Assembly: GCF_028867965.1 (NCBI RefSeq)
Contig: NZ_JAPQNT010000002.1
Coordinates: 310,001-374,000, forward strand
Direction: 5' to 3'
Length of the DNA: 64,000 nucleotides
Source of the DNA: Flavobacterium sp. SUN046
GTDB lineage: Bacteria; Bacteroidota; Bacteroidia; Flavobacteriales; Flavobacteriaceae
Translations under genes and position numbers: made by a program
Notes under the pieces: generated by a model
The model's input: the letters and a program-made list of their open reading frames with translations, nothing else
Told to the model about the DNA's origin: nothing
Database searches by the model: none
Shown: piece after piece, positions 4,055-26,163 of the stretch
Layout of the letters: the number at the start of each line of letters is the position of its first letter
Position numbering within the stretch: the stretch's first letter is position 1

Positions 4055-4061
4055 AATTTAT

Positions 4062-4754: not shown

Positions 4755-4878
4755 ATATAATAGTAATACTATTAATTATGAAATTTTAACTTTTATTTAT
4801 GATGTTTAAAATCATAAGTAAAAACCAATAAATTATAGTAAATTATTGATTAATAGTGTTTTGTTTTAAAAAAAAAAG

Positions 4879-5448: not shown

Positions 5449-5519
5449 ATTAAATACAAAAAACACAAAAACAAGTTAATTAAACAAATTTTTGTGTCTT
5501 AAATTATGATTTAAAAAAT

Positions 5520-6044: not shown

Positions 6045-6111
6045 AAATTTTCTTTTTATCAAAGTTAATAAGATTTGTAACGACAAGCGTTAAATTTAGC
6101 TTAAAGATTGA

Positions 6112-6600: not shown

Positions 6601-6640
6601 TTCAAATTATTTTATTGCTAATGTATTAAATATAATCAAT

Positions 6641-6670
6641 AAAAAAACCATCCGAATTAACGAATGGCTT
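6641..6670 (-). terminator. Rho-independent terminator of the beta-oxidation operon
   Basis: On the minus strand, CCATTCG and CGGATGG form a 7-bp stem (one GU pair) around TTAATT, followed by a run of seven T. It lies just after the stop of the acyl-CoA dehydrogenase gene. Confidence 0.75.
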
Positions 6671-6695
6671 TCCTAACATTTAACTTAACTAAAAA

Positions 6696-8486: not shown

Positions 8487-8512
8487 TTCTTTATTTTTTT
8501 ATAGTTGGTTGA

Positions 8513-14705: not shown

Positions 14706-14830
14706 AAGTTTGTAAAATTCAAATATAGGAATACTTTATTTGCAAACAAGAAATTATATTGATTTGTGATTTGGTAGTAGATTAATTTTAATCTAGATTG
14801 ATTACTAGCTCGTTCGATAAAAGGTCTATT

Positions 14831-14921
14831 TTGTCGAAGTGCTTGCGAACCAACTACGAACAAAACCCCTATAAAATAGCTGTGAACCATTCAAAAGGTT
14901 TCATTTGATATCAAAACCTTT
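14831..14921. repeat. Dispersed repeat fragment and small inverted repeat
   Basis: The 294-bp gap between the AraC and DUF1963 genes holds a copy of TTGTCGAAGTGCT (14831-14843, shared with 12223-12235) and an AAAGGTTT...AAACCTTT inverted repeat (14894-14921). Part of the latter is then duplicated as TCAAAACCTT. The hairpin could end DUF1963 transcription, but it has no clear T run. I see no gene here. Confidence 0.45.
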
Positions 14922-14999
14922 CAAAACCTTTCAAATTTTTTATAGCTTATTTCAATTGTTTTTAGTGTTTGATTAAGTTTTAGATGTGTTAACAAGCAG

Positions 15000-15794
15000 C
15001 TATGAACAAGCCCATCCAAAAGCTAATTCTTCGTCATTATCTGGACTTTGGGTTAGATGACCTATTCCTGCATCGCCAAACATATACGGTATAAATTCAC
15101 TTTCGCCAAGTTGGTAAAACAACTCCATTTGAGCTTCTGTTTTGCGATCGTATGGATATTCTTCGGATTGAATCCAATAAGGCCAGCCAAATAATTTATC
15201 TGCCGAAATAGTTAGTCCGTAATCTCGTTCTTCCAAGAGTTCATAAACGTCATGTGCTTGGTCATCAATTCCAAGTAAAGCATATTCTTCAAAATGCGGA
15301 TAATCGTCTTTTGGAATCCAATCTGTTATTAATCGCTCTTCAAAAATTTCTAAAGCATTGGGCTGAATTTCTGCCGAAGGTTTTTCAATTTCAATTTTTC
15401 GACAAGCAGATGCTTTTGAAAAAGGGAAAAAAGATTCCAATTCGCCTTCACAATCCTCATTATGATTAGTACAATAAAAAAGTTGAATTAATCCGTTATC
15501 TTTTTTTGTAGGTAATTCATTTAAGTTTAATTGCAAAAATAAAGGCATATGTTTTTTACAATTTTCACATACTGGCCAATCGTTTTCATTTCTTAAATAA
15601 GGATAGCCACCATATTTTGAATGGGTTGAAAATGATTTAGCAACATCTTTTAAAACAGGCAAATAAGCTGTTCTTTTATGTTTTTCTAATTCTGCTATAA
15701 CTTCCTTATATATTTGTTCTAAATTTAGTGGTGCTGCTTCTTCTTTAGAAGTTTTATCTTCTTTTTTATTTGAAAACCAATTGAAAAATCCCAT
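15000..15794 (-). CDS. DUF1963 (YwqG-like) protein
   Basis: The 264-residue protein matches the YwqG/DUF1963 family. After a charged N-terminus (MGFFNWFSNKKEDK) it has SKYGGYPYLRNENDWPVCENC, a CxxC pair and LFLQLNLNELP, then QLFYCTNHNEDCEGE. The family ending follows: a GWPYWIQ block, FYQLGESEF and GDAGIGHLTQSP. The function of the family is not known; proteins of this type often appear in sets of accessory cytoplasmic genes. No membrane segment is present. Confidence 0.75.
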   Translation of the reverse strand: MGFFNWFSNKKEDKTSKEEAAPLNLEQIYKEVIAELEKHKRTAYLPVLKDVAKSFSTHSKYGGYPYLRNENDWPVCENCKKHMPLFLQLNLNELPTKKDNGLIQLFYCTNHNEDCEGELESFFPFSKASACRKIEIEKPSAEIQPNALEIFEERLITDWIPKDDYPHFEEYALLGIDDQAHDVYELLEERDYGLTISADKLFGWPYWIQSEEYPYDRKTEAQMELFYQLGESEFIPYMFGDAGIGHLTQSPDNDEELAFGWACS

Positions 15795-15846
15795 AATTAT
15801 GCAGTTTTAGGTTTTGATTTAGCTAATATAAACAAATAGTATTGTA

Positions 15847-16878
15847 TTATTCTTTTTGTTGCAATTTTACATTGTATCGCTCCAAACTCTTTTCCAAAAT
15901 TCCTTTCATTCGGTTGCGCAAATTTTCCGGGCTTATTACTTCTAAGCCATTTCCGAAACCCAATAGCAGTCGTTCCATTTCATAATTTACAATTAGTAGA
16001 AGATGGATGATGACGCTACCATCGTCGTTGGTTTTTATTAAGCGTTGGGTTTGATGCAACGGTTTTGTAAGTACATAAGGTGCGTTAGTTCGGTCTATCC
16101 AAAGTTCTATTTTTCTTGGTTGTAAACCTGAATTCACAGTTACACCAACTACGTTTTTATAGAACTTTTCGGCATCAAAATCTTCTTCAATGTAAGGTGT
16201 TTGAAAATCATAATCTAGCGCAATAATTCGGTCTAATGCTAAATTGGAAATAGGTGCCGTTTTGCGTTTTCTTCCAACCAAAAACCAACGATTATTGAAT
16301 TCTTTTAAAATAAATGCGTGAAACAAAAACGTGTTTTCATCACGTGAAGTGAACGATTTGTAAGTGATTTTTAATACTACTTTCTTGAAAATCGCTTGAT
16401 ACAATTGGTCTAAGAAATGCAATCCTTTTAAATTTTCGTTTTTATCCAAATGAATAACTGGTTGTGTATGAGATTTTTCGGCATAGATTTTATCTTCCAA
16501 ACGTTGTAAAATATCGGAAACATCATTGAATAAAGAAAAATCTTTGAATTGCTTCAACATCGAGACAGTTTCTGTCAAAACATTGATATCGGTTTCTGTT
16601 AGTGGAATGTCAGTTATAGTAAACTCTTCATCTTCATAACGATAATATTTTTTATCGTAAACTTCAATTGGCGCATTGTAACCCAATTTTTCACTGCGCA
16701 TCATTTGAATGTCCATTTGAATCGTACGCTTGCTAATAGACGTTTCGCGTCCTTCAAACTCATACAATGCATCCGAACACATTTCTATTAAATCGTCCAA
16801 AGTCCAAGCTCGGTAACGATTTTGCAAACATTTGTCGATTGTTTTGTATCGAATTAAAGCGTTTTTGTTTTGAGACAT
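15847..16878 (-). CDS. WYL-domain transcriptional regulator, divergent from rtcB
   Basis: The 343-residue protein starts with a winged-helix DNA-binding domain (YRAWTLDDLIEMCSDALYEF; TSISKRTIQMDIQMM). The WYL sensor domain follows around residues 150-240, ending FNNRWFLVGRKRKTAPISNL, and a WCX-type C-terminus includes LLLIVNYEMERLLLGFGNGL. WYL regulators are often tied to nucleic-acid stress and defence loci. This gene is transcribed away from rtcB across a 196-bp region holding a palindromic candidate operator that recurs at 24254, so I infer it controls both sites. Effector unknown; RNA ends or nucleotides are plausible. Confidence 0.85.
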   Translation of the reverse strand: MSQNKNALIRYKTIDKCLQNRYRAWTLDDLIEMCSDALYEFEGRETSISKRTIQMDIQMMRSEKLGYNAPIEVYDKKYYRYEDEEFTITDIPLTETDINVLTETVSMLKQFKDFSLFNDVSDILQRLEDKIYAEKSHTQPVIHLDKNENLKGLHFLDQLYQAIFKKVVLKITYKSFTSRDENTFLFHAFILKEFNNRWFLVGRKRKTAPISNLALDRIIALDYDFQTPYIEEDFDAEKFYKNVVGVTVNSGLQPRKIELWIDRTNAPYVLTKPLHQTQRLIKTNDDGSVIIHLLLIVNYEMERLLLGFGNGLEVISPENLRNRMKGILEKSLERYNVKLQQKE

Positions 16879-16968
16879 TTTTTAAAGTTGTTTCACAATG
16901 TTTCACAAAGGCACACTATGAGTACTGATTAATTTTCTATAATTAAATCAAAAATAGATTTTATTTTT

Positions 16969-17008
16969 TACTACGCAAAATAATTGCGCACTAGATAATC
17001 AATCTTTG
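16969..17008 (+). promoter_or_regulatory. Candidate WYL operator and rtcB promoter
   Basis: TACTACGCAAAATAATTGCG at 16969 is an imperfect inverted repeat (ACTACGCA / TGCGCACT, 6 of 8 paired, 7-bp spacer). It is followed by AATCTTTG at 17001-17008, which resembles the Bacteroidota -7 box TAnnTTTG. The same motif, with the same 32-bp offset to AATCTTTG, is found at 24254-24293 before the second tRNA-like array. This suggests one regulator acting on both. Confidence 0.65.
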
Positions 17009-17023
17009 TACATCAAAATAATC

Positions 17024-17056
17024 AACCTGATGTAATCATCGGAATTGCATCAGGTT
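17024..17056 (+). promoter_or_regulatory. 13-bp hairpin in the rtcB leader
   Basis: AACCTGATGTAAT (17024-17036) pairs with ATTGCATCAGGTT (17044-17056): twelve Watson-Crick pairs and one GU pair around a 7-nt CATCGGA loop. It lies between the promoter and the rtcB start codon. No T run follows, so it is not a terminator. It could control translation or stability, or be a processing site. Confidence 0.55.
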
Positions 17057-17074
17057 CACAAAAGAAAAAATGTT

Positions 17075-18496
17075 ATGAACACACCAATCAATGGAAACGA
17101 TTTAGTCGCAATAGGTTATGCTCAAGGCAAAATTATCGGAATTGCTTTAAAAATTAACAGAAGAAGAATTGGTTTCAATCGCGACCAAATGATGACTTTT
17201 TTTAAACAAGTTCTGGAATCACCTGAATTGTATATCGACCATATTATCTTTAGTACTCTTGCTATTGCTTTAATCGAAAAAGCCAACGAAAAACCAGAAG
17301 ATTTTATTCAATTAAATCCCAATCCAGACGCTTTTTCGGCTTACGGAATCGAACATATTGAAGATGGTGCAAAAAAACAAATGGAAGTTGCCATGCAATT
17401 ACCAGTAACGGTTGCCGGCGCTTTAATGCCAGATGCGCATCAAGGTTACGGATTGCCAATTGGTGGTGTTTTGGCTACCAAAAATGCTATCATTCCGTAT
17501 GGTGTTGGTGTAGATATTGGTTGTCGAATGGCATTATCGGTTTATGACATTACGGAGGATTTTTATTATGCCAACGAAAATAAATTCAAGCGAGAATTAA
17601 TTGCACATACCAAATTTGGTGCAGGTCACGGATTTACAGGTCAGTACAAGTCAAATCACGCCGTTTTGGATAGTCCTGTTTTTGAATCGAATGCTTTTAT
17701 CAAGAATTTGAAAGACAAAGCTTGGTCGCAATTGGGTTCGTCTGGTGGTGGAAATCACTTTGTAGAATTCGGAATTATGGAATTTGAAAAAGCCGATGCT
17801 GTTTTAGGAATTCCGAAAGGAAAGTATGTGGCTTTATTGACGCATTCGGGTTCGCGTGGTTTTGGTGCAACGGCTGCAGGTTATTACACTAAAATGGCGA
17901 AAGAAGTTTGCAAGTTACCCGAAATTGCTAGAAACTTGGCGTATTTAGATATGAATACCGAATTGGGTCACGATTATTGGGTGGCAATGAATTTGGCTGG
18001 CGATTATGCTTCGGCGTGTCACGAAGTGATTCACGATAAAATGGAAAAAGCATTGGGCGCAACGATTTTGGCGAAAGTAGAAAACCACCACAACTTTGCT
18101 TGGAAAGAAGTTTGGAATGGCGAAGAAGTTATTGTACACCGAAAAGGCGCAACGCCAGCAGGAAAAGGCGTAATGGGAATTATTCCAGGAAGTATGACCG
18201 CACCAGGATTTTTAGTTCGTGGAAAAGGTGAAGAGAACGCAATCAACTCGGCATCACACGGAGCAGGACGACAAATGAGTAGAACGCAAGCCATCAAAAG
18301 CATTACCAAAACCGAAATGCAAACCATCTTAAAAGACCACGGCGTTACGTTGATTGGCGCAGGTTTAGACGAAGCTCCAATGGCGTACAAAGATATTAAT
18401 TTGGTGATGAAAGCCCAAGAAGAATTGGTTGATGTTGTGGCAAAGTTCACGCCCAAAATGGTTCGAATGGCTGATGATGGTAGTCGTGAGGATTAG
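17075..18496 (+). CDS. rtcB: RtcB-family RNA ligase
   Basis: The start at 17075 (MNTPINGNDLVAIGYAQGK) gives 473 residues; the ATG at 17045 lies in the leader hairpin. The RtcB core is complete: PDAHQGYGLPIGGV, GVDIGCRMALS with the metal-binding cysteine, GGGNHFVEFG, LLTHSGSRGFG, ENHHNFAWKE with metal histidines, and SHGAGRQMSRTQA with the histidine that is guanylylated. RtcB joins 2',3'-cyclic phosphate or 3'-phosphate ends to 5'-OH ends with GTP and Mn2+, repairing tRNAs cut by anticodon nucleases. The divergent WYL regulator and the tRNA-like arrays downstream point to an inducible RNA-repair locus. Confidence 0.95.
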   Translation: MNTPINGNDLVAIGYAQGKIIGIALKINRRRIGFNRDQMMTFFKQVLESPELYIDHIIFSTLAIALIEKANEKPEDFIQLNPNPDAFSAYGIEHIEDGAKKQMEVAMQLPVTVAGALMPDAHQGYGLPIGGVLATKNAIIPYGVGVDIGCRMALSVYDITEDFYYANENKFKRELIAHTKFGAGHGFTGQYKSNHAVLDSPVFESNAFIKNLKDKAWSQLGSSGGGNHFVEFGIMEFEKADAVLGIPKGKYVALLTHSGSRGFGATAAGYYTKMAKEVCKLPEIARNLAYLDMNTELGHDYWVAMNLAGDYASACHEVIHDKMEKALGATILAKVENHHNFAWKEVWNGEEVIVHRKGATPAGKGVMGIIPGSMTAPGFLVRGKGEENAINSASHGAGRQMSRTQAIKSITKTEMQTILKDHGVTLIGAGLDEAPMAYKDINLVMKAQEELVDVVAKFTPKMVRMADDGSRED

Positions 18497-18560
18497 GGTT
18501 TAGTTTTCAGTCTCAGTTTTCAGTTTCAGTTTTCAGTGGGTTGTTGGAAAGTTATGTAAT

Positions 18561-18593
18561 TCGGAAGTCGCAGGTTCAAATCATGCTACGCAA
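18561..18593 (+). ncRNA. tRNA 3'-half-like fragment downstream of rtcB
   Basis: GCAGG-TTCAAAT-CATGC (18570-18586) is a T-arm with the conserved TTCAA loop and one stem mismatch. It is followed by a 7-nt stretch (TACGCAA) in the position of a 3' acceptor strand. No matching 5' half is visible. It lies 65 bp after the rtcB stop, after an AGTTTTCAG simple repeat (18501-18536). Confidence 0.45.
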
Positions 18594-18601
18594 ACAAAGT
18601 A

Positions 18602-18640
18602 AGTCGTATAGTTTAGTTGGGAAAACAGCAGGATATTTTA
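18602..18640 (+). ncRNA. tRNA 5'-half-like fragment downstream of rtcB
   Basis: AGTCGTA-TA-GTTT-AGTTGGGA-AAAC follows the layout of an acceptor strand, positions 8-9, and a D-arm with a 4-bp stem and the conserved GG in the loop. A GCAGG stretch then stands where the anticodon stem would begin, but no partner follows. It looks like the start of a degenerate tRNA-like element cut short. Confidence 0.4.
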
Positions 18641-18666
18641 GAAACTATTTGATTGAAAATACATTT

Positions 18667-18694
18667 CCTGACAGGTTTTTTTTAACCTGTTAGG
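18667..18694 (+). terminator. Inverted repeat with T6 loop after rtcB
   Basis: CCTGACAGGTT / AACCTGTTAGG form an 11-bp stem (one GU pair) around TTTTTT. The stem is strong but there is no T run after it, so termination is uncertain; it may be a mobile-repeat remnant. From here to 18910 the sequence is AT-rich and I see no gene. Confidence 0.4.
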
Positions 18695-18910
18695 TATTTG
18701 TAGTTAATAAAAAATTATAATCACGTAGTTTTACGTGTATCGCTTTAAGAAATTATTTGTTAAATTTGAGAAATGTTAATTACAGCATTCCTAACTTACG
18801 AATTTTTGCATAAGTTGGTGTTTTATCATTAAAAGGCTAGTGGTTTGTGAATTGGAGAGAAAATTGCAAATGAATTGGATGGGTTTTTATTAATTTGATT
18901 AGATAAAGAT

Positions 18911-19594
18911 ATGAAAGGTTATAACATAGTTGAAAATTATAAAATTGACACAAACATAACTTTTATAAGAATAGATCCAACAGATATAAAACTTACTCTA
19001 AAAGAAGTGTTTCAATCATTATCGGATTTAAGTTGGTTAAGTAAATTCGATGGGAGTTATATTTTAGAAAGTTTTAATGAAAGAGCAAACAGTACTATAA
19101 AACATATAGCAGATAATATAATTAAATCAAATGACAGTAGCATTACGAGTAGCTCAGCTGAATATGTTGTTTCTGAATTGGCACGTAAAGCCATCGTAAA
19201 TGAACTTAAATATTTAGATATTCCTTTAGCCGAATTGATAAAGAAGCAAAAAATTGGAAATCCTGGATTTGATTTTTACTCAGAAAATCTTTCAAATATT
19301 CTTCTTTTTGGAGAAGCTAAATTTTTAACGAGTAAAAATGCATATGGCAAAGCATTTGAGCAAATAATTAAATTTGAAAAAAATAAAAGTGATATAGAAG
19401 ATTTAATTGACTTTGACAGATTTTGTAGTAAAGATTCATTGGAAAAGTTTAATAAAAAAGAAAAAGGATTTATTGCGGCTTTCTCTTCAAAAAGCACAAA
19501 AACAGATGTCTTGTTAAAAAATATATCTAAGAATTTACACTTTATAGAAATGAAAAAATTTAGTGAAATAATTTGCATTGCGGTAAATTTATGA
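18911..19594 (+). CDS. hamA: Hachiman-like HamA nuclease (DUF1837)
   Basis: The 227-residue protein has a PD-(D/E)xK nuclease core: GFDF supplies the first acidic residue and LLFGEAKF the ExK pair, 15 residues apart, after an N-terminal helical part. Its stop overlaps the ATG of a large superfamily-2 helicase (ATGA overlap). This is the layout of the two-gene Hachiman anti-phage system, in which HamA (DUF1837) is the effector and HamB the sensor helicase. It is somewhat short for HamA. Codons are visibly more AT-rich than in rtcB, consistent with acquisition. The family call rests on motif and pair arrangement, not on a search. Confidence 0.75.
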   Translation: MKGYNIVENYKIDTNITFIRIDPTDIKLTLKEVFQSLSDLSWLSKFDGSYILESFNERANSTIKHIADNIIKSNDSSITSSSAEYVVSELARKAIVNELKYLDIPLAELIKKQKIGNPGFDFYSENLSNILLFGEAKFLTSKNAYGKAFEQIIKFEKNKSDIEDLIDFDRFCSKDSLEKFNKKEKGFIAAFSSKSTKTDVLLKNISKNLHFIEMKKFSEIICIAVNL

Positions 19595-21888
19595 AAGATG
19601 TTATTAAAAATATTATTGCAAGTAAAAACGTTGAAAAAATTTTTTCATATGTTTTGGATAGACTTTTTAAAAATGGCCCAGTAAGTATTACAGATATGGA
19701 AATATTGTCATATTTGTTTATTTATCAAAGAGATAAGTTTGAATTGCATAAAAATTCGATATTAAACTTCATGAGCGTTTTTTACAAAAATGTACCTAGA
19801 GAAACTTTGAGAGAGGCTGTTTTTGGTCAATATAAAAGATTTTTACATGATAAGTATCAAAAATACCTTAATGATAATGAATACTTAACACCGGTACAGG
19901 CAGATATTTTGAAAGGTATAGATAGTAATAATTGCTTCAGCTTTTCAGCTCCGACGAGTACAGGAAAATCATTTGTATTTATGAAAAAAATTATTGAATG
20001 CAAAAATGATGTTGTCGTTGTTGTTCCGTCTAGAGCACTAATTAACGAATATTATATAAAATTATGTAATAGTATTGAAGACAAAACAATAAATATCTTA
20101 ACATTTATTGATAAAATAAATACGAAGAGGTCAAAAAAAAATGTTTTTATCGTTACGCCAGAAAGGTGCAGGGAATTATTTAAATATAAAGATAAGGAAG
20201 AATTCGTGATAGATTTATTTCTTTTCGATGAAGCTCAATTAAGTAACCAAAATGATAAAAGGGGATTATATTATGATAGTATAGTTAGAAGAGCATATAA
20301 AAAATATCCAGATGCGAAATTTGTATTTGCACATCCATTTGTTTCAAATCCAGAATCGCAAATAATAAAAAATAAATTAGATAGAAATAAGTCTGATGAT
20401 AGGCCATATGAACAAAAAAATGTTGGGCAAATTTTTATTATAAAACAAGGAAATGATTTTTTCCATTTTGGAATTGACAAAGACATAATGGGAACTAGTA
20501 AGGTGAAATGTGAATTTCACCCAATAAAAAAAGTTTTAAAAGAAGGAGGAAGTGTTTTATTTTATGTTCCTAAGCAAAAAATTTATGATAGAAGAATAAT
20601 TACTGATTTTAAAGAATATATTGATTCTTGTAAGGAAATTGAAAGCGAAAGGATTGATTATTATATTGACGAACTAATAAAAATTACTGGTGGAAATACT
20701 GTAGAAGGTGAAAATTATTATTCACAAATGATTTCACTTTTGAAAAAAGGTATCGTAATACATCATGGATCTATGCCATTGCAGACCAGAATATTAATTG
20801 AAGAATTTACAAAAGAAGGACTTTGTAAAATATGTTTTGCTACATCTACTCTTGAGCAAGGGATTAATATGCCTTTTGATATTGTATTTGTTGATAGATT
20901 AGAAGTAAAAGAATCGCTAGCTTTAAAAAACTTAATTGGTAGAGCTGGAAGATCATCAATTGATAATAAGTTTGATTACGGTACTGTTATTATTAGAACG
21001 AACATGAGTGGCTTTAGAAAAGTTATGTTGACTTCAAACGTATTAGATGAGGTATCCAGTTTAGATAAAATTGAAGATAAAGATGATGATTATAATGATT
21101 TCAAAGAATCAATAATTGATGGAAGTTTTGATGATGAATATAATTTGACACCAAAGGAAATTGAAAACATAAATAAACCTAATACTCAAAATATTATTAT
21201 AAAAATATTAAACTCAGTATTTTTAAACAATGAATTAATTCCATTGGATAAAATTAGTAATGATATTGATTTTAAACTAGAACTATATTCAAATTTCAGG
21301 AAGTTGTATGAAACATTTCTGGATAGAAATTTAAGTGACGCTGAAGCGGATGTTTTAAATACGGCAATAAAAATTATGTTATGGAGAGTTTATGGTAAAA
21401 CTTTCAAACAGATTTGTTGGTATAGATATTCTCATGCTATTAATTCTCATTCAAGAAGCAATGAAAATTCTGCTGCAAATTACACAACTGGATTTCACGA
21501 AATTCCTAATAAGAATTTAAGGCGGTTTCCTTTATATGGAGCTTATAACTTAGCAAAAGATGTTGATTACGATAGAATAATATTTGATACATATGACTAT
21601 ATTGATAAATTAATAGGATTTAAACTAAATGATAAATTTTATGCTTCATTTATAAAATATTATGAAAGTTCTAGTGATCAAAAAGCAATAAAGCTAGCAA
21701 ATTATATAAAGTTTGGAACTGATAATAAAAAAGAAATTTGGATGCTAAGATATGGCTTAACATTTGAAGATATTGAAATTTTAAATGATTACATTGAAAA
21801 AATAGACTCTGAAGAAATTATTTTTAAAAAGACAATAACTAATGTTCCTGAGATGTATAGACAATCTATAAATCGTTTTATTGACTAA
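19591..21888 (+). CDS. hamB: Hachiman-like HamB superfamily-2 helicase
   Basis: The start at 19591 (MKDVIKNIIASKN) overlaps the hamA stop and gives 765 residues; an upstream ATG at 19573 is inside hamA. Helicase motifs are in order: SAPTSTGKS (Walker A, about 119-127), LFDEAQLS (motif II, DEAQ, about 212-219), and in the second RecA domain IHHGSMPLQTR, FATSTLEQGINMPFD and LIGRAGRSS (motif VI). The 300-residue C-terminus is unlike standard repair helicases. With the adjoining PD-(D/E)xK gene this fits HamB, which senses phage DNA or its intermediates and controls HamA. It is AT-rich like hamA and lies inside the RNA-repair island. Confidence 0.78.
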   Translation: MKDVIKNIIASKNVEKIFSYVLDRLFKNGPVSITDMEILSYLFIYQRDKFELHKNSILNFMSVFYKNVPRETLREAVFGQYKRFLHDKYQKYLNDNEYLTPVQADILKGIDSNNCFSFSAPTSTGKSFVFMKKIIECKNDVVVVVPSRALINEYYIKLCNSIEDKTINILTFIDKINTKRSKKNVFIVTPERCRELFKYKDKEEFVIDLFLFDEAQLSNQNDKRGLYYDSIVRRAYKKYPDAKFVFAHPFVSNPESQIIKNKLDRNKSDDRPYEQKNVGQIFIIKQGNDFFHFGIDKDIMGTSKVKCEFHPIKKVLKEGGSVLFYVPKQKIYDRRIITDFKEYIDSCKEIESERIDYYIDELIKITGGNTVEGENYYSQMISLLKKGIVIHHGSMPLQTRILIEEFTKEGLCKICFATSTLEQGINMPFDIVFVDRLEVKESLALKNLIGRAGRSSIDNKFDYGTVIIRTNMSGFRKVMLTSNVLDEVSSLDKIEDKDDDYNDFKESIIDGSFDDEYNLTPKEIENINKPNTQNIIIKILNSVFLNNELIPLDKISNDIDFKLELYSNFRKLYETFLDRNLSDAEADVLNTAIKIMLWRVYGKTFKQICWYRYSHAINSHSRSNENSAANYTTGFHEIPNKNLRRFPLYGAYNLAKDVDYDRIIFDTYDYIDKLIGFKLNDKFYASFIKYYESSSDQKAIKLANYIKFGTDNKKEIWMLRYGLTFEDIEILNDYIEKIDSEEIIFKKTITNVPEMYRQSINRFID

Positions 21889-22051
21889 TGACCATCAGAC
21901 CTTAAAATCCCAAAACCTAATCATATTCAAAGTAATCTCAGGAAGTAAATCCTTTGGGATAGACATTCCAAAGGCTTCCTTACCAGAAACTCCAAATATT
22001 GAAAAGGTATTGAAAGTATTGATTGAAACCACCCAAAACTTGCCCATTTAA
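21888..22051 (+). pseudogene. Decayed polymerase-beta-like nucleotidyltransferase remnant
   Basis: An ATG overlapping the hamB stop opens MTIRP and stops at once. In the next frame an open stretch reads LKSQNLIIFKVISGSKSFGI and continues with DIPKASLPETPNIEKVLKVL. The ISGSKSFG piece resembles the GS-x-x-(Y/F)G nucleotide-binding motif at the start of YcgL/COG3541-type nucleotidyltransferases, and the second half resembles a C-terminus, so most of the middle appears deleted. Such nucleotidyltransferases have been reported near RtcB genes; here only a stump is left, possibly from the event that brought in the Hachiman pair. Confidence 0.5.
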
Positions 22052-22069
22052 AAAAATAAACTACTTTTG
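22040..22069 (+). promoter_or_regulatory. Putative promoter before tRNA-like/mini-ORF unit
   Basis: TACTTTTG (22062-22069) matches the Bacteroidota -7 consensus TAnnTTTG exactly. A TTGC lies 18 bp upstream at the -33 position. The transcript would cover 22076-22259 and stop at the hairpin there. Confidence 0.5.
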
Positions 22070-22077
22070 CCCACGAA

Positions 22078-22194
22078 ATGAAAAACATACAAAAACATAC
22101 ACGCGTACTATTAATTCAAGCTAATGATTGTTCACTAGGAAATTTTCCTGTGGCGCAATTAGGACGTGGTGTGTATTTTGGTAAGTTGAATTGA
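22078..22194 (+). CDS. Possible 38-residue mini-protein (doubtful)
   Basis: An ATG nine bases after a -7 box opens 38 codons beginning MKNIQKHTRVLLIQANDC. It overlaps a tRNA-like stretch from 22146, and GNFPVAQLGRGV is what a tRNA 5' region looks like when translated. I therefore doubt it is a real protein. No family is recognised. It is listed because it begins MKN like the other mini-ORF at 22647. Confidence 0.2.
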   Translation: MKNIQKHTRVLLIQANDCSLGNFPVAQLGRGVYFGKLN

Positions 22195-22208
22195 TGGGTT
22201 AGAATCAA
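22146..22208 (+). ncRNA. Degenerate tRNA-like element
   Basis: CCTGTGGCGCAATTAGGACG resembles a tRNA acceptor and D-arm. At 22191-22208 TTGAT-GGGTTAGA-ATCAA forms a T-arm-like hairpin whose GGTTAGAATC differs by one base from the conserved GGTTCGAATC. The anticodon arm cannot be resolved. It is followed 25 bp later by a terminator, so it probably ends its own short transcript. Confidence 0.35.
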
Positions 22209-22233
22209 ACAAACGATATAAAATATACAAAAG

Positions 22234-22259
22234 CGTCCTCCAAAAGAGGACGTTTTTTT
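22234..22259 (+). terminator. Rho-independent terminator
   Basis: CGTCCTC/GAGGACG, 7 bp around CAAAA, followed by seven T. It ends the short unit that starts near 22076 and isolates it from the array downstream. Confidence 0.8.
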
Positions 22260-22309
22260 GTTTTAAAAGATAATTATAACAGTAAAAATGAAAGAAATAA
22301 TTAAAAATG

Positions 22310-22332
22310 AGATGCTGAAACAAGTTCAGCAT
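22310..22332. repeat. Dispersed palindromic repeat (TGCTGAA...TTCAGCA)
   Basis: GATGCTGAAACAAGTTCAGC plus AT forms a 7-bp palindrome around ACAAG. This wording recurs widely in Bacteroidota intergenic regions and commonly gives false mini-ORFs with a MLKQVQH core, as it does here from 22288. The rest of 22260-22515 is AT-rich with no gene. Confidence 0.5.
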
Positions 22333-22515
22333 AAAAAAAAATAAAAAAATGTTTGATGCAATTTAAAAATATAACAAAATAAAGCTTGAAAAGTAACCAA
22401 ATGAGAGACAGTCATTTGACACTGAAAAGAAATCTACAGCATTAGTGGACAGGATTTTCTATGACTAAAAATAATTATAAGTAATTGATAATCAATAAAA
22501 TAAATTAAAAATAAA

Positions 22516-22548
22516 TTTGGAAGTTCCTTTTTTTTGACTTTATCTTTG
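22516..22548 (+). promoter_or_regulatory. Promoter of the first tRNA-like array
   Basis: TTTG (22516-22519), a 21-bp spacer and TATCTTTG (22541-22548) fit the Bacteroidota -33/-7 consensus. There is no copy of the TACTACGCA operator here, so this array may have a separate control. Downstream the leader has two copies of TTTCAGGTTTTAG (22571-22583 and 22592-22604). Confidence 0.6.
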
Positions 22549-22646
22549 CATCGGAAAATTAGAAAGCAGGTTTCAGGTTTTAGAATTCAGATTTCAGGTT
22601 TTAGTTTTAAGAAAAAAAATATACATATACAATAAAAAAAATAAAA

Positions 22647-22745
22647 ATGAAAAATCGCTTACAAAATATACTACTTAATCAAACTCCGAGTGTAGACTTT
22701 GGGTTTAAAAATAAGATGGTGCAAAAATACAGGCAAGTGGAGTAG
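22647..22745 (+). CDS. Possible 32-residue leader peptide before the array
   Basis: ATG at 22647 with an A-rich upstream stretch opens 32 codons (MKNRLQNILLN..., ending KYRQVE) and stops 25 bp before a terminator-like hairpin. Its place between a promoter and a hairpin that precedes the tRNA-like array is what a leader peptide of an attenuator would look like. There is no evidence of conservation, and chance is possible. Confidence 0.3.
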   Translation: MKNRLQNILLNQTPSVDFGFKNKMVQKYRQVE

Positions 22746-22770
22746 TAGTATTCCGATGTTATGATATGAA

Positions 22771-22797
22771 GCACCTTTAACGAGGTGTTTTTTTTTG
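22771..22797 (+). terminator. Terminator-like hairpin ahead of the tRNA-like array
   Basis: GCACCT and AGGTGT form a 6-bp stem (one GU pair) around TTAACG, followed by eight or nine T. It stands between the promoter at 22516 and the first tRNA-like element at 22809, so read-through or a separate start is needed to transcribe the array. Confidence 0.5.
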
Positions 22798-22808
22798 CTT
22801 ATAAATTT

Positions 22809-22881
22809 GATTCCATAGCTCAATTGGATAGAGCAATTGCCTACGAAGCACTAGATAAAGGTTCGAGTCCTTTTGGGATCA
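22809..22881 (+). tRNA. tRNA-like, Arg(ACG)
   Basis: A full cloverleaf folds. The acceptor is GATTCCA/TGGGATC, followed by TA. The D-arm is GCTC/GAGC with GG in the loop. The anticodon arm is ATTGC/GCACT with one mismatch and the loop CTACGAA (anticodon ACG at 34-36). The variable loop has only 4 nt, and the T-arm AAAGG-TTCGAGT-CCTTT is perfect. The stem mismatch and short variable loop set it apart from a normal housekeeping Arg tRNA. It is the first member of the array. Confidence 0.6.
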
Positions 22882-22886
22882 CAAAA

Positions 22887-22958
22887 GATTTTGTAGCTCA
22901 ACAGTAGAGCGGTGGTTTGTTAAGCCAAAGGTTGAAGGTTCGAATCCTTCCAGAATCG
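22887..22958 (+). tRNA. tRNA-like, Asn(GTT)
   Basis: The acceptor GATTTTG/CAGAATC is fully paired, as are the D-stem GCTC/GAGC and the T-arm GAAGG-TTCGAAT-CCTTC. The anticodon arm GTGGT/GCCAA has one mismatch and one GU pair around TTGTTAA (anticodon GTT). The D-loop AACAGTA lacks the conserved GG pair, which would weaken the normal D-T loop contact. It begins 5 nt after the Arg-like element. Confidence 0.58.
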
Positions 22959-22970
22959 CAGGTTTTAGAA

Positions 22971-23045
22971 AGGAACCTAACTCAAAGAATGGTAGTTGTT
23001 TTTGACTGTCTCTCAAATTACAATACCAACTACTTTGAGTTACCT
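22971..23045 (+). ncRNA. Long hairpin with Asp(GTC)-like anticodon loop
   Basis: The outer stem AGG...TAACTCAAAG pairs with CTTTGAGTTA...CCT (10+3 bp, AACC bulge). An inner stem TAGTTG/CAACTA (22993-22998 with 23027-23032) follows, then TTTGA-CTGTCTC-TCAAA, a 5-bp stem with a 7-nt loop reading GTC at the anticodon positions after T33. There is no D- or T-arm. It fills exactly the gap between the Asn-like and Pro-like elements, so it seems to be an array member reduced to an extended anticodon arm. Confidence 0.5.
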
Positions 23046-23117
23046 CTGAGAAGATAACGGTGGTTGTTTACTCGCCTTGGACGCGAGAGGTCGCAAGTTC
23101 GAATCTTGCTTCTCAGA
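23046..23117 (+). tRNA. tRNA-like, Pro(TGG)
   Basis: Acceptor CTGAGAA/TTCTCAG, anticodon arm CTCGC/GCGAG and T-arm GCAAG-TTCGAAT-CTTGC are all perfectly paired. The loop CTTGGAC gives anticodon TGG (Pro), although C38 is unusual. Positions 8-9 are GA instead of TA, and the D-stem has only three pairs (AAC/GTT). It starts directly after the preceding hairpin. Confidence 0.55.
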
Positions 23118-23127
23118 CAAATAATTT

Positions 23128-23209
23128 GGAAGTACGTCAACGTTGGAGAGTTGAGGCAGACTGTAAATCTGTTGCTTTTGCTGAGTAGGCTCGAATCCTA
23201 CTACTTCCA
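23128..23209 (+). tRNA. tRNA-like, Tyr(GTA)
   Basis: The acceptor GGAAGTA/TACTTCC, the D-arm TCAA/TTGA, the anticodon arm GCAGA/TCTGT with loop CTGTAAA (anticodon GTA), a 12-nt class II variable region and the T-arm GTAGG-CTCGAAT-CCTAC all fold. Deviations are CG at positions 8-9 and C in place of the nearly universal T54 in the T-loop. It is close to a real tRNA-Tyr. Confidence 0.6.
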
Positions 23210-23215
23210 CTAAAT

Positions 23216-23288
23216 TGATTTATGATGTAATTGGTTAGCATAAGAGTCTTTGAAGCTCTCTGTTCAGGTTCGAGTCCTGATGAATCAA
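23216..23288 (+). tRNA. tRNA-like, Gln(TTG)
   Basis: The acceptor TGATTTA/TGAATCA (one GU pair), D-arm ATGT/GCAT with GG in the loop, anticodon arm AGAGT/GCTCT with loop CTTTGAA (anticodon TTG), a 4-nt variable loop and the T-arm TCAGG-TTCGAGT-CCTGA all fold. This is the best-formed member of the array. Positions 8-9 are TG. Confidence 0.6.
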
Positions 23289-23293
23289 CAACA

Positions 23294-23369
23294 AATGCAG
23301 GAATGGCGGAATGGTATACGCGTCAGATTTAGAATCTGAATTTTGAAGGTTCGAAATGCTTTGCATTCG
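23294..23369 (+). ncRNA. tRNA-like, Leu(TAG), altered 3' half
   Basis: TGGCGGAATGG...CGCG and the anticodon arm TCAGA-TTTAGAA-TCTGA (anticodon TAG) are clearly those of a tRNA-Leu. The long variable arm is missing and the T-arm is broken (GAAGG-TTCGAAA with no partner). The usual acceptor partner is absent, but AATGCAG (23294-23300) can pair with TTGCATT (23361-23367), a different acceptor. The 3' end TTGCATTCG recurs in the Leu(CAA)-like element at 24616-24624. Confidence 0.5.
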
Positions 23370-23463
23370 TGAACACATTTAAAAAACAATCAAAAAGGAT
23401 GTGAACAATCCTTCTTTCTGTACAAAAAACGAAAATAGTAAATAACTTTTAAAAACAAAAAAC

Positions 23464-24249
23464 ATGTTAGTATATAACAGAATCGCGTTAGTTGGTATTG
23501 AATTAGATGAGTATCAAGTTATAAAATCGAATTATAATGGTCACATTATTTGGCATCAATCTATTCCTAAGATTGTTGTAAAAGATGGCGTTTTATTTAT
23601 GGAAAAGGAAAACGGAATCGGTATGCTTCCTGTTGACAAAGTTATCTATTATGGTATTTATGATGCTGATTTTGATTTCATTACTGGTTTAGCTTTGTGG
23701 AATGGACCTTGTTTTCCTAATCCAATTGGCATGATGGATTGTCGATTAAAAATTCCGTGTTTGGTTAAGGCGTTACAATTTACCAATTTTGGTTCTGCAA
23801 GAGGATTTATTTCGGCAGATGCGGAAATGAATGTTCAAAATGATACTGTAGCAAAATGGGGTAATTGGCATTGTGGTGAAAACAAACACCGTTTTACTGG
23901 TAATTGGAAAAGTGAATTTGCAGCTACAATTGAACCTTATTTTCAAGGTGAAGCTGTTCGTATTATGATTATTGGCAATCACATTTGGCAAATAAAATTA
24001 GAAGGTACAACTTGGTTGAAGTCAATACATCCCGATTCAGCTTGTTTTATGGAAGTCGATCAAGATTTATTGAAAGATACTCAACATATAATGAAGCATA
24101 TGAACATGGACATGATTGGAACAGATTATATTGTTTGTAGTGATGGTTCGAAACAACTTTTAGAAGTTAATCACATACCAAATGTTACACGTTTTGAAGA
24201 AATTAGATTGGCTTATCTAGAAACTATAATTAAGTGGATTTCTGAATAA
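23464..24249 (+). CDS. ATP-grasp-like protein of the RNA-repair island
   Basis: The 261-residue protein has no signal or membrane segment. Its C-terminal half reads like the end of an ATP-grasp fold: an EAVRIMIIGNHIWQIKLEG strand pair with a conserved-looking Arg, then TDYIVCSDGSKQLLEVNHIP. The latter matches the D-x-(n)-G-x-x-x-LEVN-x-x-P metal- and ATP-binding pattern of RimK/D-Ala ligase-type enzymes. The N-terminal half (GIELDEYQV, ENGIGMLPVDKV, LWNGPCFPNPIGMMD) is unfamiliar. ATP-grasp enzymes form amide or related bonds from acyl phosphates; here the substrate may be RNA or tRNA-linked, judging from two flanking tRNA-like arrays. That role is an inference. Confidence 0.55.
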   Translation: MLVYNRIALVGIELDEYQVIKSNYNGHIIWHQSIPKIVVKDGVLFMEKENGIGMLPVDKVIYYGIYDADFDFITGLALWNGPCFPNPIGMMDCRLKIPCLVKALQFTNFGSARGFISADAEMNVQNDTVAKWGNWHCGENKHRFTGNWKSEFAATIEPYFQGEAVRIMIIGNHIWQIKLEGTTWLKSIHPDSACFMEVDQDLLKDTQHIMKHMNMDMIGTDYIVCSDGSKQLLEVNHIPNVTRFEEIRLAYLETIIKWISE

Positions 24250-24253
24250 TAGT

Positions 24254-24293
24254 TACTACGCAGAATAATTGCGTAGTGGTTTTGAAATCTTTG
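24254..24293 (+). promoter_or_regulatory. Second candidate WYL operator and promoter
   Basis: TACTACGCAGAATAATTGCG starts at 24254 and forms a perfect 8-bp inverted repeat (ACTACGCA/TGCGTAGT, 7-bp spacer). AATCTTTG lies at 24286-24293. Both the motif and its 32-bp offset match the rtcB promoter region. It would drive the second tRNA-like array and probably the SPFH gene. Confidence 0.65.
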
Positions 24294-24445
24294 TTCAAGA
24301 AATAAAAACGTTCATTGATTTATAATAATATCAAACGAGTCTTGTTGGGTGTTTCTGTATAGCACTATTGTAGTATTCTTTTCGCTTTGGCGAATGATGT
24401 GGTACTGTTCAACTTGATTTGGAGGTTTTGATTGTTTTCCAAAAA

Positions 24446-24488
24446 ATGATCTCCACTATGGGTCGTGGGTTCGAATCCCACTTTCGAG
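24446..24488 (+). ncRNA. tRNA 3'-half-like, Trp(CCA)-like loop
   Basis: The T-arm GTGGG-TTCGAAT-CCCAC (24465-24481) is perfect. Upstream, CTCCACT has T33 and CCA at anticodon positions, but the stem is weak (two or three pairs). No D-arm or matching 5' acceptor is found; instead 24418-24443 forms a TTTGGA/TCCAAA hairpin. It looks like the remaining half of a Trp-type element. Confidence 0.4.
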
Positions 24489-24490
24489 TA

Positions 24491-24558
24491 ATCGGAATAG
24501 TTCAGTTAGGTTAGAACAATAGTAATTTGGATACGTAGGTTCGAATCCTACTCGCAAT
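24491..24558 (+). ncRNA. tRNA-like element, possible Gln(TTG), degenerate
   Basis: The D-arm GTTC/GAAC with AGTTAGGTTA loop and the T-arm GTAGG-TTCGAAT-CCTAC are perfect. Between them the anticodon region is shortened: GTA-ATTTGGA-TAC gives a 3-bp stem with TTG at the anticodon positions and no variable loop. The acceptor ATCGGAA/TCGCAAT has only four of seven pairs. Confidence 0.42.
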
Positions 24559-24559
24559 T

Positions 24560-24624
24560 CGATGCGATTGACAGCGGTTGTCACCTTTTTAGACTCAAAA
24601 TCTAAAACGCCAGAGTTGCATTCG
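24560..24624 (+). ncRNA. tRNA-like element, Leu(CAA)-like anticodon arm
   Basis: TTTTAGA-CTCAAAA-TCTAAAA is a 7-bp stem with a 7-nt loop reading CAA (Leu). It is preceded by TGACA-GCGGT-TGTCA, a D-arm-like hairpin. The ends CGATGC and GCATTCG can pair with one bulge. No T-arm is present. The terminal TTGCATTCG is shared with the Leu(TAG)-like element of the first array. Confidence 0.42.
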
Positions 24625-24655
24625 CTCTTAAAATGAATGTACCAAAAAAAAGAAA

Positions 24656-24720
24656 CAGGTTTGTCTTTGTCGGCAAAGGAGAAAAAAAGTGTTCAAATGA
24701 TGCACTCAAGATACGACCTG
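24656..24720 (+). ncRNA. Possible three-way structured RNA
   Basis: CAGGT (24656-24660) pairs with ACCTG (24716-24720), enclosing CTTTG-TCGG-CAAAG and a weaker AGTG...CACT arm. The layout recalls a small cloverleaf. The same stretch lies inside a 41-codon open frame (24633-24758) that I do not recognise. Downstream to 25032 is A-rich sequence with no clear gene. Confidence 0.25.
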
Positions 24721-24990
24721 AAAATGAAATGGTTTTATTGGAATTTATATTGCTTTAAGATTTGATTACAAATAAAGATTGCGTACAGTTTTGAATTTGT
24801 AAAATAGAATGGCAAACCAACGTAAAGGAAGAACAAACACTTTGTTTTCCGTCGGTATCTGAGGATGAGGACAAACAGGTTTTCTTATAATAAAAGAAAA
24901 TAGAGTAAAGAGTAAAGAAAAAAGAGAAAGGATAGATTAAAGATTAGAACCTTATGCTATCAAATTAATAATACATGACGAAACTAAAAC

Positions 24991-25020
24991 CCTTTGTGGC
25001 TTAGTGTCTTAGTGGCTAAA
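24991..25020. repeat. Dispersed CTTTGTGGCTTAGTG-type repeat
   Basis: CCTTTGTGGCTTAGTGTCTT followed by AGTGGC is a low-complexity repeat seen in many flavobacterial intergenic regions. It lies just before the SPFH start codon, so the longer reading frame that starts in it (24994) is not a likely N-terminus. Confidence 0.45.
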
Positions 25021-25032
25021 CAAATAGAAATA

Positions 25033-26130
25033 ATGATTAAAAAAATTAAAATTAATGCCTACCAAGTGGGTTTGGTATTTGAGAACAGAAAATTAGTGCA
25101 AGTGTTGCAAGAAGGTGCTTTTTGGATTTTTGGTGATAAAAACATAATGATTTATGAAATGAATCAGTCGTTTGTAGCACCAATTGAGTTGAATATTTTA
25201 TTACAAAATGAGCAGTTGGCTTCGATGTTGGAAGTAGTTGAGGTTGCCGATAACGAAATTGTTTTGTTCACTAGCAACGGCATTTTTAAAGAAATCTTGT
25301 CTACTGGAAGATTTGCTTTTTGGAAAAACTACAACAAAAATGAATTTGTAAAAGTAGATTTATCTAAAGTGAATATCACCGAGCAAATTCCGGTAACTTT
25401 ATTAGAAAATATGAAGTTGCGTACTTTTGTGAGAAAATTTCAAGTAGCAAACTTTGAAAAAGGTTTATTGTTTGTAAACGGAGTTTTTGTAAAAGAATTA
25501 ATTGCCGGAACTTACTACTTTTGGAACAACGCCATTTTGGTTGAGGTTAAAAATGTAGATATCAGACAGCAACAAATGGAAATTTCAGGTCAAGAATTGT
25601 TGACTAAAGACAAAGCGGCTTTGCGTATCAATTTTTATATGAGATACCAAGTGGTTGATGCCTTGAAAGCTTTGGTAAACAACAAAGATTTTGAAAAACA
25701 AGTGTATGTTGTGATGCAATTGGCTTTAAGAGCTTTTGTTGGAAACTATACTTTGGACGAATTGTTGAGCAGAAAAGAAACTATTTCAAAAGAAATTTTG
25801 GAACAAGTAGCGGATAAAATCAACGATTTGGGATTGGCAGTTTCTGATGCTGGTATTAGAGATGTAATTTTGCCTGGTGATATGAAAGAAATCATGAATC
25901 AGGTTTTGGTTGCCGAGAAAAAAGCGCAAGCCAACAGCATAATGAGACGTGAGGAAACTGCCGCAATGCGAAGCATGTTGAACACTGCCAAATTGATGGA
26001 AGAAAACGAAATGTTGTGGAAATTGAAAGAGATGGAATACGTTGAAAAAATCGCAGATAAAATTGGTGAAATCACCATTTCAGGAAGCGGAAACGTCATC
26101 GGTCAATTGAAAGAGATTTTCGTAAAATAA
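25033..26130 (+). CDS. SPFH/band-7 (slipin-like) protein
   Basis: The start at 25033 (MIKKIKINAYQVGLVFENRK) gives 365 residues. The N-terminal region holds two similar GLVFENRKLVQVLQEG / GLLFVNGVFVKELIAG beta units. The band-7 core follows: VDIRQQQMEISGQELLTKDK, then FYMRYQVVDALKALVNN, and a predicted helix SRKETISKEILEQVADKIND. DAGIRDVILPGDMKEIMNQV and a coiled-coil tail with EKKAQANSIMRREETAAMR come last. Unlike membrane slipins it has no N-terminal transmembrane helix. Band-7 genes occur in bacterial RNA-repair operons with RtcB, which this context repeats; a scaffold or ring role is plausible. Confidence 0.85.
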   Translation: MIKKIKINAYQVGLVFENRKLVQVLQEGAFWIFGDKNIMIYEMNQSFVAPIELNILLQNEQLASMLEVVEVADNEIVLFTSNGIFKEILSTGRFAFWKNYNKNEFVKVDLSKVNITEQIPVTLLENMKLRTFVRKFQVANFEKGLLFVNGVFVKELIAGTYYFWNNAILVEVKNVDIRQQQMEISGQELLTKDKAALRINFYMRYQVVDALKALVNNKDFEKQVYVVMQLALRAFVGNYTLDELLSRKETISKEILEQVADKINDLGLAVSDAGIRDVILPGDMKEIMNQVLVAEKKAQANSIMRREETAAMRSMLNTAKLMEENEMLWKLKEMEYVEKIADKIGEITISGSGNVIGQLKEIFVK

Positions 26131-26133
26131 AGA

Positions 26134-26163
26134 AAAACCGCGAGTTATTGCTCGTGGTTTTTG
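26134..26163 (+). terminator. Rho-independent terminator after the SPFH gene
   Basis: AAAACCGCGAG/CTCGTGGTTTT, an 11-bp stem (one GU pair) around TTATTG ending in T-rich sequence, 4 bp after the stop. It closes the RNA-repair island. The 270 bp from here to 26430 are AT-rich and hold no gene I can support. Confidence 0.8.

Follow-up and report, generated by a model that had tools for sequence, protein, structure and literature searches.

A putative RNA-repair island of Flavobacterium sp. SUN046 with a slipin-associated structured RNA and a tRNA array

What is the role of tRNA-like elements that lie beside the gene for an RNA ligase in a flavobacterial chromosome? The question is raised by a locus of Flavobacterium sp. 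SUN046 (genome size 3.37 Mb) within a 64,000-nt stretch of contig NZ_JAPQNT010000002.1 (positions 310,001 to 374,000 of the forward strand, numbered here from 1 and referred to as the window). The island occupies positions 15847-26130 and comprises a gene for a WYL-domain regulator on the minus strand followed, on the plus strand, by the RNA ligase gene rtcB, a two-gene HamB cassette, a run of tRNA-like elements, a gene for an ATP-grasp-like protein, a structured RNA and a gene for a band-7 protein (slipin). A preliminary description had seen here two arrays of tRNA-like elements flanking the ATP-grasp-like gene. The island is real and recurring, and the first array is a short, partly decayed tRNA array, but the second is one structured RNA with two YrlA-type, circularly permuted tRNA modules. 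The set of parts is found repeatedly within Bacteroidia and probably contributes to survival of tRNA damage; we lean towards interpreting it as an inducible island for tRNA damage or translation stress, built around a complex of the slipin and the RNA. A limited literature search found no publication on the locus.

The structured RNA upstream of the slipin gene

The RNA (24318-24888, plus strand, about 570 nt) consists of a 5' domain (24331-24422), a hairpin (24430-24451), the permuted tRNA modules, a long-range stem (24662/24873) and a terminal T-run. Module 1 (24455-24523, plus strand), recognized from covarying helices 6-9 and by a motif scan, has a closing stem, a T-arm (24465-24481), an acceptor hairpin (24482-24497) and a D-arm (24500-24517). 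Module 2 (24535-24606, plus strand) has a T-arm (24535-24551), an acceptor hairpin (24552-24567), a D-like arm (24569-24583) and an anticodon-like arm (24588-24606); its T-stem covaries (helix 10), the rest was assigned by eye, and the strict motif scan did not find this module in the window. Rfam 15 yields for the RNA only a marginal tRNA match straddling both modules (24491-24559, 29.9 bits against a gathering threshold of 29) and a sub-threshold YrlA match on module 1 (33.1 bits over 24457-24521 against 69). Reading the second array as tRNA genes was rejected, as the acceptor hairpin loop measures 4 nt in the window and CCA is absent (read from the alignment A1 described below), and on the same grounds we rejected the modules as precursors circularized by RtcB into working tRNAs, although the second modules of some relatives carry full anticodon arms, read by eye as Lys UUU in L018 and as Asn GUU in L191. 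Just 5' of the structured RNA, L018 also has a tRNA-like element whose anticodon arm carries an insertion of about 130 nt (8035-8240, by eye).

Relatives were taken from the Flavobacteriaceae, where 80 of 165 were kept as collection loci with flanks of at most 10 kb; most of these are from Flavobacterium, so counts over the 80 loci are not independent. A family draw comprised 149 genomes of Flavobacteriaceae, from which 14 band-7 loci were checked for the RNA, and a class-level set of 395 Bacteroidia genomes contributed 20 of its 21 band-7 loci outside the family (G474 was left out). Blastn searches with two queries, 24251-24800 of the window and the corresponding part of L018, placed the RNA beside the band-7 gene in 79 of the 80 collection loci, the exception (L053) being cut at a contig end, and in 12 of the 14 loci of the family draw. 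Across 92 loci the RNA is 504-685 nt long.

To assess the structure, we aligned 42 of these 92 RNAs, chosen to be less than 84% identical and shorter than 720 nt (alignment A1). The structure has 13 helices with 74 pairs, which are standard in 94.4% of cells, compared with 77.3% after shuffling and at most 46.6% when slid, although the structure comes mostly from RNAalifold run on the same alignment, which favours it, with the closing stem of module 1 added from the tRNA fold. Both sides change in 55 of the 74 pairs, the covariation score is 0.543 versus 0.219 for shuffled data, and each of the five observed values lies beyond all of the 500 shuffles. Helices 6-9, which form module 1, are paired in 89.6-100% of cells, with two-sided changes in each. 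The motif scan for permuted modules gave 144 matches in 105 family-level records (2.0 Mb) versus none in one Markov shuffle per strand; 109 of them lie within 1 kb upstream of a band-7 gene, in 92 loci, and among the other 35, inspected in part, some may be neighbouring tRNAs. Outside the family, the scan detected a permuted module in 18 of the 20 loci. A model of the 5' domain (R1), applied to the class-level set with strict filters, matched five genomes, all five with a slipin, which is present in 26 of the 395. If the interpretation towards which we lean is right, this RNA would be a defined partner, with a covariation-supported structure, for SPFH proteins encoded in RNA-repair loci.

The band-7 gene itself (24994-26130, plus strand; Pfam Band_7 95.1 bits), correctly named in the preliminary description, encodes an SPFH protein (slipin) that probably starts at the ATG at 25033 and then has 365 aa, as in P0160. 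By fold comparison, its predicted model resembles stomatin plus vault-like beta modules; this is a single model (pLDDT 78, pTM 0.55) in which, according to the tool's warning, residues outside 122-332 are barely tested, and among the 50 fold matches listed only the vault ones (seven of ten) extend back to residue 16-17. An open reading frame (ORF) of 455 aa behind the slipin gene (26431-27798) has no Pfam, PADLOC or NCBIfam match.

The main rival to a slipin-RNA complex is that the RNA acts in cis as a leader of the slipin mRNA, an attenuator or sensor whose modules would sense tRNA-binding enzymes and whose 3' terminator would gate slipin transcription. This explanation, which we consider rather improbable, draws on the position of the RNA, which begins just after an operator-promoter and lies directly upstream of the slipin gene in nearly all loci, and on its end, formed by the long-range stem and a T-run. 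This end is 105-144 nt away from the two possible slipin starts of the window and, in L051, about 30 nt upstream of the match. However, with some 550-570 nt and several conserved domains the RNA is large for a leader, and its modules match, if weakly in Rfam, YrlA, an RNA that acts in trans.

A shared operator and the recurrence of the repair genes

The divergent arrangement of WYL and rtcB genes noticed at the outset is borne out by Pfam. The WYL-domain transcription regulator (15847-16878, minus strand, 343 aa) matches WYL with 34.9 bits and WCX with 48 bits, both over the cut-off, and the RNA ligase (17045-18496, plus strand; Pfam RtcB 277.5 bits) has 483 aa when read from TTG, a likely ATG being seen by eye near 17075. 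The operator-promoter module thought to be common to rtcB and the second array is likewise present at both places, with 76% identity over 50 nt. Its copy at 16968-17017 (plus strand) joins the operator TACGCA-N7-TGCGCA to the rtcB promoter, while the copy preceding the structured RNA (24253-24302, plus strand) has the palindrome TACGCA-N7-TGCGTA; both carry ATCTTTG (17002-17008 and 24287-24293), which we take to be a -7 box. The 21-bp operator core is found without mismatches at both sites, against 0.00 expected in window shuffles, and with up to three mismatches it finds these two sites only, those of rtcB and the RNA, in the whole genome, while the reversed core pattern has, at the same limit, one forward and one reverse match.

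The spacing of the operator is nearly fixed in relatives: the palindrome T-N-CGCA-N(6-8)-TGCG-N-A occurs 117 times in 125 records (2.38 Mb), 116 times with a 7-base spacer. An operator lies at most 1.2 kb upstream of band-7 in 62 of the 80 collection loci, the palindrome is present in 14 of the 20 loci from other Bacteroidia families, and further operators precede rtcB or the WYL gene in relatives (by eye). The position of the WYL gene leads us to infer that its product binds the operator.

The notion of a co-regulated island that recurs in relatives has been upheld as far as the parts recur together under a common operator. In the 149 genomes, rtcB (E<=1e-60) is present in 17 and the long band-7 gene (E 1e-99 or better) in 15, with both in nine (Fisher P 1e-6, uncorrected for relatedness); at a looser limit of 1e-15 as many as 41 genomes match band-7, because other SPFH proteins then match. 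The preliminary description had proposed to see whether the genes lie apart in relatives: seven of the nine genomes with both have them in one locus, G096 has them about 86 kb apart, and in G079 they are on two small contigs, where linkage is undecidable. Six of the 15 band-7 genomes are without this rtcB, and two of these (L023 and L025) have, as the sole RtcB at the locus, a divergent one (30-31%) beside band-7. RtcB proteins about 30% identical to that of the window are also seen near the island in L020, L027 and L036. Among the 20 loci from other families, a WYL gene is near band-7 in 13, rtcB in 13 (one 35% identical) and both in eight, and ten have any tRNA according to ARAGORN. Sister loci carry RlaP nucleotidyltransferases, an RLIG1-type RNA ligase and an RF-1-domain gene, the last of which we liken to PrfH (L058:6944-8002, L062:5465-6220, L100:7661-8230, L032:8561-9253). 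No RtcA cyclase was found among nine window proteins scanned with Pfam, to which the search was confined.

The ATP-grasp-like gene does not belong to this core. Its 261-aa product (23464-24249, plus strand) can be called a RimK-type accessory protein, in partial agreement with the earlier assignment: a few of the 120 matches listed, out of 781 relatives, are named RimK-type ATP-grasp, but its Pfam matches are all sub-threshold (TTL 15.4 of 20.1 bits, RimK 12.9 of 21). The gene occurs in 24 of the 80 collection loci and in one of the 149 family genomes, the window's own (E<=1e-10); in 25 loci, including the window, it lies 651-1233 nt upstream of band-7.

Three features had escaped the preliminary description, namely a HamB cassette, tRNA-like fragments after rtcB, and a promoter, leader and terminator of the first array. 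The fragments (18569-18629, plus strand; by eye, with no tool score) consist of a T-arm and a D-arm and are a probable array remnant. The defence-like cassette (18911-21888, plus strand) comprises a 227-aa ORF, for which PADLOC has no match, and a 771-aa HamB-type helicase (PADLOC HamB 185.8 bits). Because the tRNA-arm fragments directly follow rtcB, the array may once have followed rtcB too, and the arrangement suggests that the cassette was inserted into the repair island, splitting the array from rtcB. A HamB piece, 67% identical, occurs in locus L119.

The tRNA array

The array (22809-23369, plus strand) has seven elements, four of which are reported by ARAGORN. These are tRNA-like elements for Arg (ACG; 22809-22882, Rfam tRNA 61.5 bits), Asn (GTT; 22887-22959, 67.1 bits), Pro (TGG; 23046-23118, 35.9 bits) and Gln (TTG; 23216-23289, 58.2 bits). 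Between Asn and Pro there is a degenerate Asp-like hairpin (22979-23041) that keeps the anticodon stem-loop GACTGTCTCTC, recognized by eye from the Asp elements of relatives and without a tool score. A Tyr-like element (GTA; 23128-23208) has its best Rfam match to tRNA-Sec (34.8 bits, below the gathering threshold of 47) and was assigned by eye from its anticodon loop and the Tyr elements of relatives, and the last element is a degenerate Leu-like tRNA (TAG; 23301-23369, Rfam tRNA 31.1 bits, isotype by eye) lacking the long variable arm. Five Rfam tRNA matches at or above gathering fall within the array, a sixth being the marginal one on the structured RNA. The array tRNAs are supernumerary, with 36 further Rfam tRNA matches in the genome beyond the window. 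Such arrays are common in relatives, 59 of the 80 collection loci having at least one ARAGORN tRNA near band-7 and 45 at least three; the highest count in the family draw is 18 (L030).

Directly before the array lies a conserved block (22333-22808, plus strand) with a promoter (TATCTTTG, 22541-22548), a leader of about 220 nt and a terminator hairpin (22769-22796). The core of this block is found in 71 of 122 records, 17 of the 122 being short rtcB stretches, and conservation is about 69-85% in many Flavobacterium loci. The terminator, AAGCACCT..AGGTGCTT, stands just 5' of the first tRNA, and a simple scan found one in 62 of the 71 core records. The block has no covariation support; it is possibly an attenuator or a small RNA. 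A candidate small leader peptide at 22647-22742 is conserved in sequence and was not called coding on account of a stop in L043. A candidate anti-terminator was likewise set aside: AGGTGC/GCACCT is nearly invariant, which puts it beyond a covariation test, and its length in many loci does not exceed that of chance matches in shuffles.

We collected ARAGORN elements near band-7 (near rtcB in L036 and L038), including the window's four, which gave 390 elements in 73 loci. Asp (56), Arg (45), Leu (43), Pro (39), Asn (31), Tyr (31) and His (28) are prominent among them, Phe is also frequent, and Ala (1), Gly (2), Val (3) and Thr (0) are rare. For the discriminator base 73 we used 361 of the 390, dropping those shorter than 60 nt as parsed or without a cognate in the window's own genome (Glu, Ile, unassigned). 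The reference was the tRNAs of the window genome rather than each relative's own, a list of 28 (26 from genome stretches and two in the window) against 44 Rfam tRNA matches genome-wide. The cognate base 73 is kept in 331 of the 361 tRNAs, compared with a mean of 155 and a maximum of 188 in 2000 label shuffles, and in 261 of 290 unique sequences; C73 is kept in 26 of 28 His elements and C1 in 36 of 39 Pro elements. The mean identity to the cognate tRNA of the window genome is 62-76% by isotype and the cognate is the nearest tRNA in only 70 of 361 cases, so the array tRNAs are not recent copies of this genome's tRNAs. Most Leu elements are without the long variable arm, with 72-75 nt in 39 of 43 cases compared with 81-87 in housekeeping tRNAs. 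A model built from the array tRNAs (R2) gave 484 matches in 94 sources, with some housekeeping tRNAs among the matches.

The preserved discriminator bases favour functional spare tRNAs over decoys and thus weaken the decoy role proposed earlier. Judging from these sequences, we read the array as working spare tRNAs that would be under selection for charging and are decaying in Flavobacterium. Alternatively, the array tRNAs and the permuted modules could keep anticodon nucleases occupied, as baits or competitive inhibitors. The skewed isotypes of the arrays and the loss of T or D arms in some window elements that keep the anticodon loop (by eye) would suit baits, and the idea has been published for YrlA, as far as the consulted part of that paper goes (PMC7790460). 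Yet baits would not need the cognate discriminators, the His C73 or the Pro C1 that are kept, and according to the same portion of the text YrlA fragments were undetected in Salmonella (PMC7790460), so that we hold baits to be unlikely.

Could the array instead be a mobile one of phage or plasmid origin (L-array) that sits by rtcB by chance, its genes travelling without a joint job? The viral contig L202 carries 36 tRNA genes, an HNH endonuclease gene and a slipin gene at 2908-9104 and a terminase gene at 14651-16324, and it extends the link between array and slipin beyond the bacterial genomes searched. The variation and decay of the arrays and the invasion of the locus by a defence cassette also suit a mobile array. 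Against it stand the fixed-spacer operator, the covarying RNA and a gene neighbourhood that recurs over many families, which together make it very improbable. A phage origin was rejected; four viral contigs were found, and the phage collection gave one weak match.

A tRNA-damage island and its known counterparts

The interpretation towards which we lean, an inducible island built around a slipin-RNA complex, has to be weighed against a number of observations that speak against it. As regards the RNA, blastn found none in L033 and a 55-nt match only in L030, the scan found no permuted module in L190 and L195, the reach of R1 is limited to five of the 395 class genomes, its matches outside the family are weak (E 0.0013-6.5, at the expected place in 12 of the 20 loci), and the first 323 nt of the window RNA, folded alone, are about as stable as shuffles (z -1.27). 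As regards the genes, eight of the 17 rtcB genomes are without the long band-7, L036 and L038 have a tRNA array near rtcB with no slipin and no RNA at the expected place, and within the flanks of at most 10 kb RtcB is found at 25 and the WYL gene at 15 of the 80 collection loci. As regards the array, its promoter is conserved yet without the operator, base 73 differs from that of the window genome in six of 14 Gln and six of 27 Phe elements, and seven of the 20 class loci have WYL, slipin and rtcB with no ARAGORN tRNA, which makes the array optional.

If the interpretation is right, the divergent WYL protein would bind the operator and respond to RNA damage or stalled translation. RtcB would seal tRNAs or rRNA cut to 2',3'-cyclic-phosphate and 5'-OH ends, and the slipin would assemble with the RNA into a ring or shell, in which the permuted modules of the RNA may dock tRNA-binding partners in the way that the tRNA-like domain of YrlA docks PNPase beside Rsr. 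The array would supply replacement tRNAs while housekeeping tRNAs are damaged, with the RimK-type enzyme as an optional accessory. Since the array has partly decayed and the cassette now separates it from rtcB, the steps of WYL, RtcB and slipin-RNA would matter most in this genome.

A bolder version, which we offer tentatively and think more likely wrong than right, has Bacteroidia assembling a vault-like ribonucleoprotein of small size. Its shell would consist of soluble slipin and be organized by the large RNA, and the closed, permuted tRNA modules of this RNA would serve as docking sites for tRNA-handling enzymes. The WYL sensor would induce the particle along with RtcB, and some lineages would add a nearly whole set of spare tRNAs and a Ro60-like protein, making it a station for tRNA repair and replacement. 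If the interpretation as an island for tRNA damage or translation stress is right, one compact locus would bring together what is scattered over the genome in Anabaena, namely the sensor, the ligase, the spare tRNAs and a large RNA-protein scaffold, the whole response could be studied as a single unit in laboratory strains, and slipins, Ro60 and Y-RNA-like modules would be joined in one picture.

The vault particle contains, besides the major vault protein (MVP), vault RNA and TEP1, a protein with a TROVE domain. In its predicted model the slipin may resemble MVP in combining beta modules with an SPFH domain, but it is far smaller, and the likeness is known here from that single model. A TROVE (Ro60-like) gene follows band-7 in G079, at 180-1703 of the tRNA array locus L030; TROVE (PF05731) has no match in the window's own genome and is found in one of the 149 family genomes, G079. 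Band-7/SPFH modules with a novel cognate tRNA-like RNA were reportedly described by Burroughs and Aravind (NAR 2016), probably, in broad lines, the association seen here.

The rsr-yrlBA-rtcBA operon of Proteobacteria with its regulator RtcR is similar in combining RtcB, a neighbouring RNA with a tRNA-like module and a divergent regulator, to judge from the sections consulted (PMC7790460, PMC8394870), the second of which also describes YrlA as tethering PNPase to Rsr (PMC8394870). An SPFH gene lies inside the rtc locus of P. aeruginosa, according to a partly available account (PMC13086221). In contrast to these systems, the divergent gene here is WYL/WCX and not the CARF-domain RtcR (which was not searched for elsewhere in the genome), and the RNA is much larger and coupled to a slipin. 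Module 1 shares with YrlA (Rfam RF02553) the order of T-arm, closed acceptor hairpin, D-arm and a stem closing at the anticodon position, whereas its score is below gathering and the RNA has two modules and extra domains.

The closest known system is the translation-stress regulon of Anabaena, whose trn operon was reportedly treated by Santamaria-Gomez in 2021. In the part of the main source consulted, TrcR represses an operon of 26 tRNAs, controls rtcB, slipin and rimK, and is released under translation stress (PMC10272220). Joint changes of the L-array, rtcB and slipin are also seen in another data set, for which the authors warn, in the portion consulted, that erythromycin may be the cause (PMC9938897). 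A slipin-linked structured RNA was not found in what these texts say of the regulon, in the parts consulted (PMC10272220, PMC9938897). The regulator of Anabaena is the RHH-family TrcR, whereas the neighbouring regulator here is WYL (no search of the genome was aimed at TrcR). The array promoter here lacks the operator, which is common to rtcB and the RNA with the slipin gene, unlike the Anabaena array under TrcR. The combination of parts, regarded in the preliminary description as not well described, is thus less unprecedented than it appeared: as far as the consulted sections show, a tRNA array, rtcB, a slipin (alr0740) and rimK-type functions are co-regulated in Anabaena as well, where the trn operon (L-array) is silent until translation is inhibited and the genes are dispersed over the chromosome and a plasmid (PMC10272220), while here they lie mostly in one locus, probably under the WYL regulator.

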